IMG/VR virus record: IMGVR_UViG_3300049893_000343
Span: 1-20,388 of that record
Source: a virus
Length of the DNA: 20,388 nucleotides
Direction: 5' to 3' (one strand)
In this document: positions 4,148-20,388 of the stretch, one piece after another
How positions within the stretch are numbered: the first letter of the stretch is position 1
Layout of the letters: the number at the start of each line of letters is the position of its first letter
Program-made: the position numbers and the translations under genes
Notes under the pieces: model-generated
Told to the model about the DNA's origin: nothing
Seen by the model: the letters and a program-made list of their open reading frames with translations, nothing else
Database searches by the model: none

Positions 4148-5230
4148 TTAGTAATCCCACCGGATACGCGGCCGGCCAGGTCTGATGCCAAGATGCACAA
4201 ATCCCTTAGGCGCACCATACCCTAAGCTGTATGGCCATTCCTTGTCGCACCACTCTTGTACCTTATAGATGTCAACGCCGTCGATGTAAAAGTCAACAGC
4301 GCCGGTATCTTTTGCATCGTATAGGTGCTCTGATTGGCTGGCGCCACCGACACTACGGTTGATCTCAGGCGGGCGGTAGCCGGATGTAATCACAACAGGC
4401 TTACCGCCGAAGTGCGTGCGGCAGCGTTCCATAAATGCCGCCAGTTCTGCTGCGGTATCAAGTTGATGCGGGAAGCGAAAGCGCCGTGCCTCTTGACCCA
4501 GTGCAAACTCACCTAGCGTGATGTGTGGTGTCAGCCTGGCGGAGAAGCTAGCGGCAGGTGTCAGCTTGGCGGGTTGCTGCTGCGCTTCAGGTAACCCGAG
4601 GCCTTGCAGCCACAGGCGGCCTTCTGCCTCGCGGCGTCGCTTGAGCCCAGCTTCTACGTTGCTGCCGGGGTTGCGGTACAGCATCAGTGCATCCGGCACC
4701 TTTGCCCAGTCGCGTTCCTTCAGTCGGCGGGTGATGGTCTCGAACCCCTCAGCACCGTAGAAGCCATCGCCAAGGTTATAGGCGAAGGAAATCAATGCGC
4801 AACGCTGCGGATCCTGCAGCTGCTGCCAGTTGGGCACTGCACCACTCAGCTTGGTGGCGATGCGGTCAACCTCCTGGCGGAGCATTAGGTCAGCTTCAAC
4901 GGCATTGATCCGATCGCCCTGCTGCACTGCACGGCCATCGGGGTATCGCGTGTTGCCGTAGCCGATCGTCCATGGCGCACCACCGCTGGCGGGGTCTGGA
5001 TATGCCGTCAGTTGGCAACCTTCAAACTCCTTGATCAGCGCAAGCGCTTGCGAGTAATCGAGCTGCTTACCGGCGGTGCTCCATGTCTTGAACCACTCCC
5101 GATCGCGGCGCATGGCGACGGTGTAGCCATTGGCCTTGATGTCAGCTTCCAGCAGCGGGATAGCAGCGCGCTGATGCGGCAGGTCGCGCCAGTAGCGGAA
5201 CAACTGCTCGATTGTGATCGGTGATGCCAT
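4148..5230 (-). CDS. Two-domain endolysin: GH24 lysozyme plus M15 peptidase
   Basis: This 360-residue cell-wall lytic enzyme has three parts. Residues 1-55 are a helical N-terminal region (EQLFRYWRDLPHQRAA). Residues 60-210 are a T4-type GH24 lysozyme domain with the E..D..T triad visible as E70 (KEFEG), D79 (YPDP) and T88 (PWTIGYGNT). Residues 230-360 are an M15_3-type zinc carboxypeptidase domain with ITSGYRPP, zinc-ligand candidates H302 (SEH) and D313, and the closing H346 (FVHLGI). It would cut both the glycan and peptide parts of peptidoglycan at the end of infection. No signal peptide is seen, so it needs a holin. The ATG overlaps the stop of the 43-residue membrane gene (TGATG), placing it in a lysis cassette. 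Confidence 0.88.
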   Translation of the reverse strand: MASPITIEQLFRYWRDLPHQRAAIPLLEADIKANGYTVAMRRDREWFKTWSTAGKQLDYSQALALIKEFEGCQLTAYPDPASGGAPWTIGYGNTRYPDGRAVQQGDRINAVEADLMLRQEVDRIATKLSGAVPNWQQLQDPQRCALISFAYNLGDGFYGAEGFETITRRLKERDWAKVPDALMLYRNPGSNVEAGLKRRREAEGRLWLQGLGLPEAQQQPAKLTPAASFSARLTPHITLGEFALGQEARRFRFPHQLDTAAELAAFMERCRTHFGGKPVVITSGYRPPEINRSVGGASQSEHLYDAKDTGAVDFYIDGVDIYKVQEWCDKEWPYSLGYGAPKGFVHLGIRPGRPRIRWDY

Positions 5231-13839: not shown

Positions 13840-14415
13840 TCAACCGCTCACCTGTACGGTATCAATACCAGCGGAAACGACAACGCTACCGACGATGGTT
13901 TCACCGTAGGCGATCGGCACCGGCACACCCTGCCTTGATACCTGTTGGATGCCGGAGAAGCTGTATGACTTACGCGGGTCAGATTGCGTATCCTGCCCAG
14001 TTGGCAAGGTTGGTACGGGTGACAGGAGTTGTGCGACGCCACCTAGGGCGAGGCTTACGCCAACACCTGTAATCAAGGCGTATGCAGTCGGCCCTGCCCA
14101 AGCTGCGAATCCCGGAATGAAGCTAAGGGCGATTAAGCCTACTCCTGCAATTATGCGCCCTACCGTACCAGCTCCAACAATTACGGGCACAATACTGATC
14201 TGCTGCTGCCCGCTGGGGTGATGCAGCTCATCCTCGCTTAGGTCATAACTGCCAACACTTACGCGGTAGTGCTGCTCAGCCATGTGCTGCTCCAGCCCTG
14301 GGAAGTTCACCACCAGAAACCGCACAGCTTCAGCGGCAGATGCAATGTCCGCTTCGAGCACACGATGGCCAATGAACTTCGCCAGTTTGCCGTACAGCTT
14401 AATCTTGCTCAGCAT
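13840..14415 (-). CDS. I: Tail assembly protein, lambda gpI-like
   Basis: This 191-residue protein has an N-terminal ubiquitin-like part ([17 protein letters not shown] ... [15 protein letters not shown]), a middle with [17 protein letters not shown], and a Gly/Ala-rich hydrophobic region (about 95-145; [18 protein letters not shown]). It ends with [20 protein letters not shown]. This is the gpI family layout, involved in tail-tip assembly together with gpK. ATG 14415 overlaps the end of the K gene by seven bases and gives the normal family N-terminus. An in-frame upstream start at 14469 would add 18 basic residues inside K and is rejected. Confidence 0.85.
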
Positions 14416-15137
14416 CGCGTTAGCTGCAGCCTGTCTGCATCGTAGAGCCTGACGCGGCGGCCGGTGCATTTCTGCAGCCAGCCGCCGTACAAATCACGAC
14501 TGCTCAGCCGGCCGCGTAGGTGATGCAGTAGCAGCTGATCACCAACGTAAATACCAACATGGTTCAGCTTGCTATTGCTGATCGCCATCAGCAGCGCATC
14601 ACCCGGCTGCAGGTCTTCTTCTGGTTCCAGCTCACGAAACCCCGTATCACGCCAACAGCTGTCAAACATCGGTTCACGCTCGAAGTCATCCGCTGCGAGC
14701 GGTCGCTGCCAGTCGCGTACCGTGACGCCGTGCTCGGCGTACCAGTCCCGCACCAATGCCCAGCAGTCGGTAACGCCCCACACCCACTCACGACCGATCA
14801 GCGGCGCACGGTAGCCCGATGGCTTGGTAACAGGCCCCCACTGCCCGGTGCGTGGGTTGATGATCCACCACGGCAGGCCGGTGGCCTCAATGCCGATCAG
14901 ATCCGCCTGGCTTGGTGTTGGCGTGGTATGCGGATGGCTGTGAACGACTGCGATGATCTCGCCGGTATCCTCGGCGGCGGCGTAGTCATCTGGATCAAGG
15001 ATGAACTGATCGCGATCAGCGGCGAGGTTACGACACGGCCAATACCGTTGCCGGCCTTTGACCACAACAAGCAGCCCGCACGCCTCACGCGGATCTTCAG
15101 CTTGCGCGTGCGCTAATGCAGCGGCTTGCCACTTCAT
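14409..15137 (-). CDS. K: Tail-tip peptidase, lambda gpK-like (JAMM + NlpC/P60)
   Basis: This 242-residue protein has two domains in the usual gpK order. Residues 1-110 form a JAMM/Mov34 metalloprotease-like domain with a full motif: E18, HSHP at 66-69 (H66, H68), then S76 and D79. Residues 115-242 form an NlpC/P60 domain with the catalytic Cys at C125 ([10 protein letters not shown]) and His at H193 ([11 protein letters not shown]). It probably processes tail proteins or locally cuts peptidoglycan during DNA entry. The ATG overlaps the L stop (ATGA). Neither domain has lost visible key residues. The NlpC third residue is not assigned with confidence. Confidence 0.92.
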
Positions 15138-16174: not shown

Positions 16175-19100
16175 TTAGCTACTTAGGATGCCGCCGGGGC
16201 GTTTCTGCTTGATCAGTTCAGCCTGAACGGCGCCAGCGACAACGCGGGCGAGTTGGCTGGCTTGGCCGGCGTCGCCCTGGACTTGGCTGCCGGTGGCATC
16301 GACGCTGACGTTCACAGTGACGGGCGCTCCACCGCCAGCTGATTCGATGCCAAGTCGGCCGCTGGGGAGGCGGCGGAGCGGCATGATCGCTTCCGGGCCA
16401 GCCTCGCCCATAAGACCGAGGCGGCCGACCCCGCCGTTGGCGAAGGCGAACATCGTCGGCCGGTTGACCACACCCCCCATCGCAAACGGAACGATGCCGT
16501 TGGAGGCGAAGGCACCGCCGTTAGCAAACTTGAACCCACTCGTCGGGAATCCAGCGCCTGGCATCTCAAAGGTCTTGGCGAGTGCGCTTCCTCCACCGCC
16601 GCCGATAGCACCAATGGCCTGCATGACAGTACGCAGAATCAACTGCTGAATGATCATGCGAGCGGTATTTTCCAGGATCTGCTTAGCGAAGTCGCGGAAG
16701 TTGGCGGTGCCGGTGGTGACGAGGCTGAAGATGGCATCCTCGACGCCTTTGATGCCGGTCTGGGCGAGCTGGCTTGTGGCCTCGCGCATCGTGCCGATGG
16801 ATTCGACGTAAGACTTGGCGCCGTCGCGTAGGCCCTTACCGATGTCGGAGTCCTGGCGGAACTGCATCGCGTCGTCAAACTCACGCTTAGCTGCAGCAGC
16901 CTCACGCAGAAGGCGGACCTGCTCGGCAAAGCCAGCGTTCTGCTCGGCTAAGGCGGTGTTCAGTGTGGCCTGGACCTTCGGATTCCTAGTTGTAGCGGTT
17001 AGATCCTTGTAGGTCTGCTCCTGCTTGTTCTGGTCCTGCCGCACTTTAAGTAGCGCTTCCTCTAAGTCGATCTGCGAGGAGCTGACACCTTCTAGGGTCA
17101 GGCGGTTGCGGAGCTTTTGCAGCTCAGCGTTGTCGCGCAGGGCGGCGTTCTGGTCGCGCAGACTGGCGCTGGCCTTGAGAATGAACTGCTCAAACAGGGC
17201 GGCGCGTTCTTCGGCCACTTTGCTTTCCAGCAGCTGCTGCTGCCGTTCGGCTTGGGTGACGTCGAGGGCCTCAATGGCTGCGCCGCCGGCCGTTTTGATG
17301 GCCCGGCCTTGCTGGGCTAGGGCGCCGGTGGGCAGCTTTGTGGAACCACGCTGTAGGTGCAGCAGACGCATAGGCCCTTGCTTCGTATTGATTTCAACGG
17401 CGTACCCACCAGCCCCCGTAAAACCTAAGTCACGCAACAGAGTTGCACCGTCCTTTAATGTAATTCCGCTGCCTGATGGTGTGCCGAAATCTATACCTGC
17501 GTGGAACGAGCGTCCGAACATACTTCTCGGACCGTAAGGGCTTGTGATTCCGTAGCTGGAAGGAGTACGACCATTAACGCTGATGTAGCGGTCTACGTCT
17601 GCAACAGAGATGCGGCGCCCATCAGCCCACCGTGCGTCAAGATGGGGGCCCGTGCTTTGACCTGTGCTACCTGTTCTGGCTATGATTCCCGCCGTACCGC
17701 TAAGCGCGGCAGCACCGGCGGCGGCGAAGCTGGAGCGTGCTTCTGCTGACTGCTGCGCCTGCTTAGCGCGGACGATGGCGGCGGTGGTCTCCATGCGACG
17801 TTCTTCGATGTCGCGCAAGCCGCGTTGCAAGTCCTCGAAGTTGCTAACGATTTCGCGGGAGACCCCTGTTTCGCGCATAACGCGATTCTGGGACTGCAGA
17901 TCATCAAGGCGCTTCTGCATTTCGTAGCGCTGGCGATCCAGGGCGATGCCGTGCTCAAACAGGCGGTCCTGCGCCTTGATCTGCTGATCGAAGATTTCGT
18001 TATTAAGGCGCTGCTGTTCTGCCGCGGCCGTTTGAGCGTCCCGCGCCTGTTTTTCTTCGGCCAAGTTTTTCTTCTTTTCGTCCTCTACTGACAGACCTGG
18101 AAATCTAGGCAGACTTGGTTTAGCTGGGGTACGCTGCGCGAGGGCATCAATACCAGCTCTATAACGCGACTGTGCTATCGCTAAATCTGCCAGATCCGCG
18201 TTTATTTGCGTCTGCAGATACTCTTTCCTTGGCTTAAATGGCGTAGTAGCCTGCTCCTCTCTAGCCTGTTTAATCTTGTCTGCCAGGTATTGGTATGTGT
18301 CGCCGGCCGCTTGTACCTGCCTTCTCAATGCGGCTACGTCCAGCGCGCTTCCACCTATTTCCTGTAACCATGTATCGCCTCTGCTAGCTGTACCTGCACG
18401 TTTTAGTCTGTCTTTAGCTGCATTGATCTTATTCAGATAATCTATTACTACCGCTGCGCCTACAACAGCTACTGTAAGTATTAGAGGCTTAGCGAAGGAT
18501 AGAGCGAGGTTACCGATTAAGCCGCGTAAACCTACAAGCTTTGCACTGAGACTACCCGCGCTAGTTGCAGTCGAGGCGAGTACATCGCCTGTAATTTTAG
18601 CCGAGGCAGCCGCTGACGTAAACGTTGTAGCGATGTTTAGCGCTGAGATCGCAGTCATAGCACTACGCAGCGCGACTAAACCGGCTGTGACCGCACCCAA
18701 CTGCAGTGCAAAAGTCGCTAGACCCGAGGCAGTTTTATTTTCGATCAAAAATTCAAATGCAGCGGCTAGGCCCTGCGCAGCTGCAATAAAGGCTGGCGTA
18801 ATCTTTGTGATGAAATCAGCGAACGCGCTCTGTAGTGAAGCACCGATAGGCTGCAAAGCACGGCCCACGTCGAGCTGCATCTGCTTCATGGCAACGCTTA
18901 GGCGAGCGCCTGCGTCTTGGCTGGATGCTGCGATCTTCAGTGCTGTCTGACCGTACTGACTGCTGATGAGCTGCAGGAACTTCAGCAGGTCGTTGAGGCC
19001 TACCTGGCCCTCTTGGAGAGCCTTCTGCAGCTGAGGGCCGGTCATGCCGGCGGCCTTAGCGAAGAGGGTGAAGGTGCCGGGAAGGCGCTCAGCGATCTGG

Positions 19101-20388
19101 TTGAGTTCCTCGGCGCTGACCTTGCCCTTGGAGAAGACCTGCGTGAGGGCGAGGAGGGCGCCGTCTACCTGCTCCGCGTTGCCTCCGGTGGCTTTGACCG
19201 CTTCGTTGATGGCACGGAACGCAAAGGCCGAATCACTTACGTTTCCGCCGGCACCCTTGACTGCAGCGCTCAGGCGGGTCATGCCCTGGATCGCAACTTC
19301 CTGGGGGATGTTGAGGTCACGCGTCACAGAAGCGGCAGCGGCCAGCGCCTGCTTATAAGCGTCCTGCGAACCAACGATGCCGCGCAGGGCGATCTGCAGT
19401 TTGTCGATGCGGGCGGAGTATTCCGTCACAGCACCGAGCTGCTGGCGGAACATACCAACCTGCGCACCAAAGGCCGCACCAGCAAAGGAGCCGCCCACGC
19501 CGCCGATAGCCAAGCCGCCAAGACCACCAATCAGACCCTCGGGGCCGCCGAAGATGCCGCCACTGAGCGCCGCGCCGACGCCCTGGGCGAGCTGCATTCC
19601 TGTTAGCTTACGTCCGACATTAGTGGATAGTTTATTGGCGCGCTCATCTACTGCTTGAAGACGATTGGTTAATTGCTTAAATTCTTTGTCTGTTGATGGA
19701 AGCTCGTTACGGAGATTAGCTAGAGCTTCGCGTAGGTTAGTTAAGGAATTGATGCTGCCTGTGTTTGCCGTAGTGGCTTTATCTACGGCAGCTCGTAATG
19801 TCTCCATTCGCGCCCGCTGTTGCTCTACAGCTGCGGTATTTGCACGACGGGCATCTGTTTCAGCTATGTAACTACGCCGAGCACGATCAGCCTCTTCTGC
19901 TGTAGCCGTCGGTTGTAGACGTTCCCGCTCGCCGGGAAAACGCACACCCCCAACACCGCTGCCGGGGGCAAATATCTGTTGGACTGCTCCAGAAGCTCTG
20001 CCCTGTCGTACACGTACACCCTGGCCAGCGCTTATCTGTAGTCCTGTACCAGGGGCACTGGTTTGACCGGCAGCGGGGAGAAGCAACGGGGTTGTAGCTA
20101 CGCCTTGACGCACGCGCTGGCCAAGTTCGGCAAAAGCAGCCTCCTGCTGGCGTACCATCCCTCGGTTGAGGTAGTTGTCGCGGATGCGCTTATTAGCGGC
20201 GTTCTGCTCGGCTGTGGCAGCCTGCGTCGCCATAGTGCTTACATTACGATATGCACCAGCAAGATCGTTAAGCTGCTTTTCTAGGCGATTGGCGGCGTTT
20301 GCGTTTTCGGCGTAGTGCCTAGATCCTTCTGCAGTTGTTGTATCTAGTTGCTCCATTTCAGCCCGCAGGGCTGCAATAACTTCTTTAA
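16175..20388 (-). CDS. H: Tape measure protein, lambda gpH-like, start outside window
   Basis: This protein sets tail length and passes into the host envelope at infection. Residues are counted from ATG 20356, but the frame stays open to the window edge (KEVIAALRAE precedes that Met), so the true start lies beyond 20388. The N-terminus is coiled coil. A Gly-rich hydrophobic segment lies at about 255-300, the tape-measure domain at about 330-520 (VSAEELNQIAERLPGTFTL), and a membrane helix at about 622-638. A permuted M23-like segment runs 895-1010, then more coiled coil. A lambda-type C-terminus (FRDFAKQILENTARMIIQQL near 1219; LMGEAGPEAIMPL near 1313) ends the protein. Base composition is patchy along the gene. 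Confidence 0.92.
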   Translation of the reverse strand, partial: KEVIAALRAEMEQLDTTTAEGSRHYAENANAANRLEKQLNDLAGAYRNVSTMATQAATAEQNAANKRIRDNYLNRGMVRQQEAAFAELGQRVRQGVATTPLLLPAAGQTSAPGTGLQISAGQGVRVRQGRASGAVQQIFAPGSGVGGVRFPGERERLQPTATAEEADRARRSYIAETDARRANTAAVEQQRARMETLRAAVDKATTANTGSINSLTNLREALANLRNELPSTDKEFKQLTNRLQAVDERANKLSTNVGRKLTGMQLAQGVGAALSGGIFGGPEGLIGGLGGLAIGGVGGSFAGAAFGAQVGMFRQQLGAVTEYSARIDKLQIALRGIVGSQDAYKQALAAAASVTRDLNIPQEVAIQGMTRLSAAVKGAGGNVSDSAFAFRAINEAVKATGGNAEQVDGALLALTQVFSKGKVSAEELNQIAERLPGTFTLFAKAAGMTGPQLQKALQEGQVGLNDLLKFLQLISSQYGQTALKIAASSQDAGARLSVAMKQMQLDVGRALQPIGASLQSAFADFITKITPAFIAAAQGLAAAFEFLIENKTASGLATFALQLGAVTAGLVALRSAMTAISALNIATTFTSAAASAKITGDVLASTATSAGSLSAKLVGLRGLIGNLALSFAKPLILTVAVVGAAVVIDYLNKINAAKDRLKRAGTASRGDTWLQEIGGSALDVAALRRQVQAAGDTYQYLADKIKQAREEQATTPFKPRKEYLQTQINADLADLAIAQSRYRAGIDALAQRTPAKPSLPRFPGLSVEDEKKKNLAEEKQARDAQTAAAEQQRLNNEIFDQQIKAQDRLFEHGIALDRQRYEMQKRLDDLQSQNRVMRETGVSREIVSNFEDLQRGLRDIEERRMETTAAIVRAKQAQQSAEARSSFAAAGAAALSGTAGIIARTGSTGQSTGPHLDARWADGRRISVADVDRYISVNGRTPSSYGITSPYGPRSMFGRSFHAGIDFGTPSGSGITLKDGATLLRDLGFTGAGGYAVEINTKQGPMRLLHLQRGSTKLPTGALAQQGRAIKTAGGAAIEALDVTQAERQQQLLESKVAEERAALFEQFILKASASLRDQNAALRDNAELQKLRNRLTLEGVSSSQIDLEEALLKVRQDQNKQEQTYKDLTATTRNPKVQATLNTALAEQNAGFAEQVRLLREAAAAKREFDDAMQFRQDSDIGKGLRDGAKSYVESIGTMREATSQLAQTGIKGVEDAIFSLVTTGTANFRDFAKQILENTARMIIQQLILRTVMQAIGAIGGGGGSALAKTFEMPGAGFPTSGFKFANGGAFASNGIVPFAMGGVVNRPTMFAFANGGVGRLGLMGEAGPEAIMPLRRLPSGRLGIESAGGGAPVTVNVSVDATGSQVQGDAGQASQLARVVAGAVQAELIKQKRPGGILSS

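Follow-up and report, generated by a model that had tools for sequence, protein, structure and literature searches.

A predicted circularly permuted M23 peptidase domain in a phage tail tape measure protein

M23 peptidases carry their catalytic elements along the chain in the order HxxxD, lone His, HxH. Their zinc is bound by the His and Asp of HxxxD and by the second His of HxH, and water is activated by the first His of HxH together with the lone His (PMC9662197). Peptidoglycan hydrolysis also occurs in tape measure proteins: that of mycobacteriophage TM4 contains a motif with proven hydrolytic action on peptidoglycan, which helps DNA to enter (PMC1796659). We analysed a window of 20,388 nucleotides, the whole stretch of viral DNA under study (IMGVR_UViG_3300049893_000343), whose tape measure protein carries M23 elements in a rotated order.

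The tail tape measure protein gene lies at 16175..20356 on the minus strand, as do all features described below, and encodes 1393 aa from the ATG at 20356. It matches Pfam TMP_3 (E=2.9e-26, residues 309-493) and Tape_meas_lam_C (E=9.8e-17, residues 1174-1242), and several PHROG tape measure families. The first-pass annotation counted residues from this ATG and its positions were reproduced, but the ATG is probably not the true start, with the start and N-terminus beyond the window. Residue numbering is provisional: the frame has not closed at the window edge (20388), and at about 1550-1970 aa the majority of closely related tape measures exceed this one in length. The tape measure is followed by genes for a lambda-like minor tail protein M (Phage_min_tail), L, a K-like JAB plus NlpC/P60 protein, and J. 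The J proteins nearest to the window's are those of Prochlorococcus siphoviruses, at about 36% identity, which fits a cyanophage but is not proof of one; megablast of the window against phage records gave 0 matches. Two further wall-targeting genes are present, one for the tail-tip JAB plus NlpC/P60 protein (14409-15137, minus) and one for an endolysin joining Phage_lysozyme and Peptidase_M15_3 (4148-5230, minus).

The segment of interest comprises residues 890-1009 (17330..17689), marked out by the rotation scan, hhalign, the AlphaFold2 model, structural matches and 120 relatives described below. Its first element is the one that is C-terminal in an ordinary M23 domain, GSTGQSTGPHLDARW (17627..17671). 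This includes H905 (17642..17644), the predicted water-activating His and first His of HxH, and D907 (17636..17638), a predicted metal ligand standing where the second, metal-binding His would be. A joint, ADGRRISVADVDRYISVNGRTPSSYG (17549..17626), lies between the M23 halves in the rotated alignment, runs from the ordinary C-terminus to the ordinary N-terminus, and holds helices in the AlphaFold2 model. The N-terminal element of an ordinary M23 domain then follows, ITSPYGPR...H952AGID956...H1000LQRGS (17342..17548), with the predicted metal ligands H952 (17501..17503) and D956 (17489..17491) and the predicted second catalytic His, H1000 (17357..17359). The chain order is thus STGPH905-L-D907, H952-AGI-D956, H1000. 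The first-pass annotation had reported each of these elements, including the upstream STGPH with Asp for the second His, and both motifs and coordinates were recovered; it had also reported no HxH after the lone His, and there is none anywhere in the 1393 residues. Histidine occurs at only five positions in the protein (14, 802, 905, 952, 1000), three of them in M23 motifs. H952 and H1000 are 48 residues apart, and most reference ordinary M23s also have a His exactly 48 past the HxxxD His.

Judged against the marks of the M23 family, the segment has the H(x)nD motif (H952-AGI-D956) and, over model residues 33-120, the LytM beta fold (Z 4.8-6.1 by sequential alignment). In place of HxH it has H905-L-D907, HxH occurring in 20 of the 120 permuted relatives; its elements run HxD, HxxxD, lone His; and its Pfam M23 score is below the gathering cut-off (24.2 vs 28.7 bits; 16.6 for the whole protein). 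We therefore class it as a permuted variant derived from M23. As expected of a virion-associated hydrolase, it is carried by a virion or DNA-delivery protein (one with TMP_3 and Tape_meas_lam_C in the window; hubs and a phage P60 protein among relatives).

The Pfam match to the segment falls in two separate pieces, and its low score is explained by the opposite element order of the profile. PDB sequence matches to the M23 enzymes 2hsi, 3slu, 6muk and 9gy1 likewise came as two pieces each, in swapped order. For a rotation scan we aligned 13 ordinary-order M23 domains, a small reference set from three bacterial genomes found through HLD matches, rotated the alignment in steps of four columns, built a new profile at each step and scored six permuted sequences. 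For all six the best score came from cutting at columns 80-96, which lie between the lone His and GxTG. From unrotated to rotated profile the window segment rose from 23.7 to 34.2 bits, Acinetobacter phage R3177 from 21.1 to 33.7, Moraxella phage Mcat20 from 19.1 to 36.7, cyanophages S-TIM54 and S-TIM66 from 14.9 to 33.3 and from 11.5 to 24.4, and L080 from 11.5 to 23.8. Control ordinary M23s from outside the profile (n=3) peaked at rotation 0-8, which is essentially the native order. Shuffling the segment 20 times gave only scores below 0 bits, at every rotation tested. With hhalign, two local pieces (scores 51 and 51) became, on rotation, a single alignment over segment residues 4-109 (score 91, E 3e-16). 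With order and residues kept in 120 relatives and shuffled copies below 0 bits, the motif match is, on sequence grounds, far beyond chance.

The catalytic positions are strongly constrained. H905, H952, D956 and H1000 are invariant among 39 close relatives. Across 24 diverse relatives, the most distant of them 28% identical to the window, the residues that never vary are G, G, T, G, H905, G, S, H952, G, D956, G and H1000. For a wider tally we collected 122 distinct sequences from all loci and left out two, giving 120 permuted relatives; the two left out (L287, L306) lack the STGPH element and are ordinary-order M23s aligned out of register. H905 and D956 are invariant in 120/120, H1000 wherever the contig reaches, and H952 in 119, the exception being Ser in phage P60 gp33. 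Free variation of these four residues in homologues, which would have told against the first-pass interpretation, was thus not seen. Residue 907 is Asp in 100 and His in 20 and nothing else, the pattern expected of a metal ligand. The domain is 80-83% identical between the window and four related tape measures (L012, L013, L016, L039), and only 24-28% identical over residues 600-889; outside the domain these proteins are mostly 24-42% identical to the window's. Within the domain, synonymous change has reached saturation (pS about 0.8) while pN is 0.05-0.16, which indicates purifying selection rather than recent transfer or decay. The first-pass annotation had offered "circularly permuted or degraded"; the second description finds no support, given the constraint at the catalytic positions and the restriction of residue 907 to Asp or His.

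The Asp at 907 is also seen outside permuted proteins. Ordinary-order M23s with HLD for HLH occur in Bacillota/Clostridiales MAGs (L088, L090, L096), and others with HLD in a Chloroflexaceae sequence (L089) and in L091 and L101, the latter Halothermothrix; Asp at this place is therefore independent of permutation. The L064/L065 group of gpD hubs, which falls inside an HLD clade, reads STGPHLHAGW, with Asp changed to His. The P60 gp33 protein (L330:2778-5780) is a T7-like internal virion protein with a C-terminal permuted M23 in which the metal His is replaced by Ser; this copy is probably inactive, judging from its sequence, so some members of the family probably are.

These observations bear on a reading in which the M23 fold and metal site are kept in a non-peptidase that binds peptidoglycan or activates another enzyme, as EnvC and NlpD do. 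The replacement of HxH by HxD in the window would suit such a role, as would the P60 copy without its metal His and the presence of an NlpC/P60 protein in the same tail, and there are degenerate M23 folds that act as regulators (PMC9662197). Degenerate factors lose their catalytic residues, however, whereas here four are kept across 120 sequences with only Asp or His at 907, and HLD is found in ordinary-order M23s as well. We consider a non-peptidase role unlikely.

We modelled residues 890-1009 with AlphaFold2. A first run with 39 closer relatives gave a pLDDT of 86.9 and pTM of 0.83, and the 24 diverse permuted relatives gave a mean pLDDT of 92.6 and pTM of 0.88. The first-pass annotation had proposed superposition on LytM, and the seven best solved chains for the model in VIA-align were indeed all M23 peptidases, through the HxxxD half only: LytM (2b13; Z 6.1, rmsd 2.3, 81 residues, with model residues 33-120 on LytM 185-267), StM23 (9gy1, Z 5.5), ShyA (6u2a, Z 5.4), 2gu1 (Z 5.2), and LytU (5kqb), 6muk and 3slu (Z 4.8-4.9). 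The eighth row was an unrelated lectin (Z 3.7). VIA-align is sequential, the Z scores are modest, and the alignments span model residues 31-45 to 120, the half from HxxxD to the lone His, with residues 1-32 outside; that a sequential aligner leaves out the first strand is what a permutation predicts. Foldseek against the PDB gave 0 matches below E 0.001 with either model, as expected of a sequential search with a permuted fold, and VIA-align then recovered the M23 rows. Against predicted viral structures Foldseek gave near full-length matches (E 1.1e-5 to 2.2e-5, TM 0.69-0.78) to the S-TIM5 virion protein, the internal virion protein of Synechococcus phage P60 and an uncultured tape measure.

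The domain recurs in several kinds of protein, some of which end or begin at the predicted cut. Phage_GPD baseplate hubs of 483-530 aa, from many contigs, end in the domain (about 70-79% identical to the window) and terminate exactly after the lone His plus a few residues; one (L072) also carries SLT_3. L252, L253 and L303 share this C-terminal end, as does L251, a protein of 966 aa in which a stretch resembling lytic transglycosylases lies upstream of the domain. Other frames start at the cut, namely the L263 protein (MSYLSLGTQGSTGVSTGPHFHFE...) and a 218-aa frame (MATFYTGNTGSRTTGDHLDFR...) in a genome of the phylum of a Synechococcaceae MAG. More distant permuted copies occur in the R3177 and Mcat20 tape measures and in structural proteins of the virions of cyanophages S-TIM5, S-TIM54 and S-TIM66, of which the hub-like S-TIM54 and S-TIM66 proteins have Phage_lysozyme2 as their C-terminal domain; gp33 of the T7-like phage P60 has a copy at its C-terminus. 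By their protein types, the carriers appear to include phages with long flexible, contractile and short tails. A permuted profile matched 185 of 194 genomes of the Synechococcaceae MAG's phylum; among the matches listed, nearly all cover only about 37 to 116 of the profile, the ordinary host M23 half, and matches to the full permuted profile occur in two genomes, one being the Synechococcaceae MAG whose contigs carry a gpD-type hub (L086). The permuted M23 thus appears to be mainly a phage form. A related-locus search with the S-TIM66 segment gave 0 loci.

Free-standing phage proteins of about 160-265 aa also begin with a permuted M23, mostly with canonical HxH (L263, L268, L275, L278, L280, L281, L282, L285, L296-L301, L307, L309). 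Several candidates were set aside: in PDB Gp16 (9m7n), which looks ordinary-order, only GSTGESTGPHLHF near the chain end matched, and the phage matches MT838142, ACG-2014f and Vibrio phage XC31 turned out to have M23s in the ordinary order. In S-TIM66 (L085) and S-TIM5 (L331) a weak ordinary-order M23-like stretch, HQEYTSLAGINVKEGDKVEIGQIIGSV (residues about 430-480), sits ahead of the permuted domain by about 55-60 residues, and may be a relic of the tandem duplication that made the permutation.

Tape measures form oligomers within the tail. The two halves might then act in trans, the STGPHLD strand of one chain completing the HxxxD half of its neighbour by domain swapping, with no permuted fold in a single chain. 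The single-chain AlphaFold2 model is nevertheless confident, the small free-standing proteins hold both halves and the joint, and the hubs carry the same module, and we regard such swapping as very improbable. That the segment is a functionless chance pairing of unrelated or decayed M23 fragments has the sub-threshold Pfam score in its favour. The rotation scan contradicts this reading, as do the conservation, the purifying selection and the spread of the domain over unrelated host proteins, and we give it next to no credence. We conclude that four lines of evidence independent of one another, namely the rotation scan, the structure model, catalytic residues invariant down to 28% identity and natural termini at the predicted cut, strongly support the window domain as a circularly permuted M23, the first of the two descriptions in the first-pass annotation.

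We propose that residues 890-1009 most probably form a complete, circularly permuted M23 zinc endopeptidase that opens peptidoglycan for DNA entry. Alongside homology, permutation, conservation and predicted fold, which were computed, we infer metal binding, catalysis, the bond that is cut and the timing in infection. In this reading the ordinary C-terminal strand, GxTGxSTGPHxH, comes first; the short joint follows, and after it the portion that opens an ordinary M23, bearing HxxxD and the lone His, so that the new chain ends lie between the lone His and GxTG. By homology, metal would be bound by H952, D956 and D907, and water activated by H905 and H1000. Histone deacetylases offer a familiar example of zinc bound by one His and two Asp. 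Tape measures exit the tail at infection; the protein would carry the domain through the tail tube and, once expelled, deliver it to the periplasm, where the domain would cleave peptide cross-links in peptidoglycan and allow DNA entry. By analogy with other M23s acting on Gram-negative-type walls, the substrate is likely the stem-peptide cross-link. The proposed wall-cutting role in DNA entry fits the carriers, namely tape measures, hubs with SLT or lysozyme domains, and internal virion proteins.

The position of the new ends, beside the lone-His and GxTG loops, invites the speculation that the tape measure could gate the groove. A broader scheme, which we hold to be doubtful, is an overlooked and widespread permuted-M23 family serving mainly in phage DNA delivery, with ends at the groove edge, so that the virion protein would shut the groove and ejection release it. 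Because the rotated order splits profile matches and drops them below curated cut-offs, wall-cutting domains of this kind would tend to go unannotated in tape measures, hubs and internal virion proteins. The natural alternation of HxD and HxH offers a direct way to ask whether Asp can serve as the third metal ligand in this enzyme class, and since the domain recurs across several tail types, its part in entry could be put to the test in cultured phages.

A literature search of incomplete coverage found no prior description of a permuted M23, so its novelty is provisional, and the word "permut" is absent from the M23 review (PMC9662197). Permutation has precedent in another cell-wall superfamily, that of the NlpC/P60 enzymes (YaeF/LRAT-like; PMC6403190), although these are cysteine enzymes of unrelated fold. 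The "peptidase M23 family" protein of Synechococcus phage S-EIVl (AHV82231.1) has the permuted order with HLD and is already labelled M23 in GenBank, but it is small and free-standing and its record is silent on rotation. Mycobacteriophage TM4 motif 3 is likewise a peptidoglycan-cutting motif in a tape measure, and aids entry into stationary cells (PMC1796659); mycobacteriophage tape measure motifs are Rpf-like or akin to small mycobacterial proteins, and are called neither M23 nor permuted. The virion M23 lysins phi29 gp13, Tal2009 and CwlP of SPbeta (PMC9662197) also place an M23-type domain in a virion protein for entry; in contrast to the window domain, no permuted member is mentioned there. 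The best structural matches are the M23B peptidases (LytM, lysostaphin, StM23, ShyA, MepM), with which the window domain shares HxxxD, the 48-residue spacing to the lone His, GxTGxSTGPHxH/D and the strand pattern, and from which it differs in its rotated order and in the Asp that replaces the second His of HxH.
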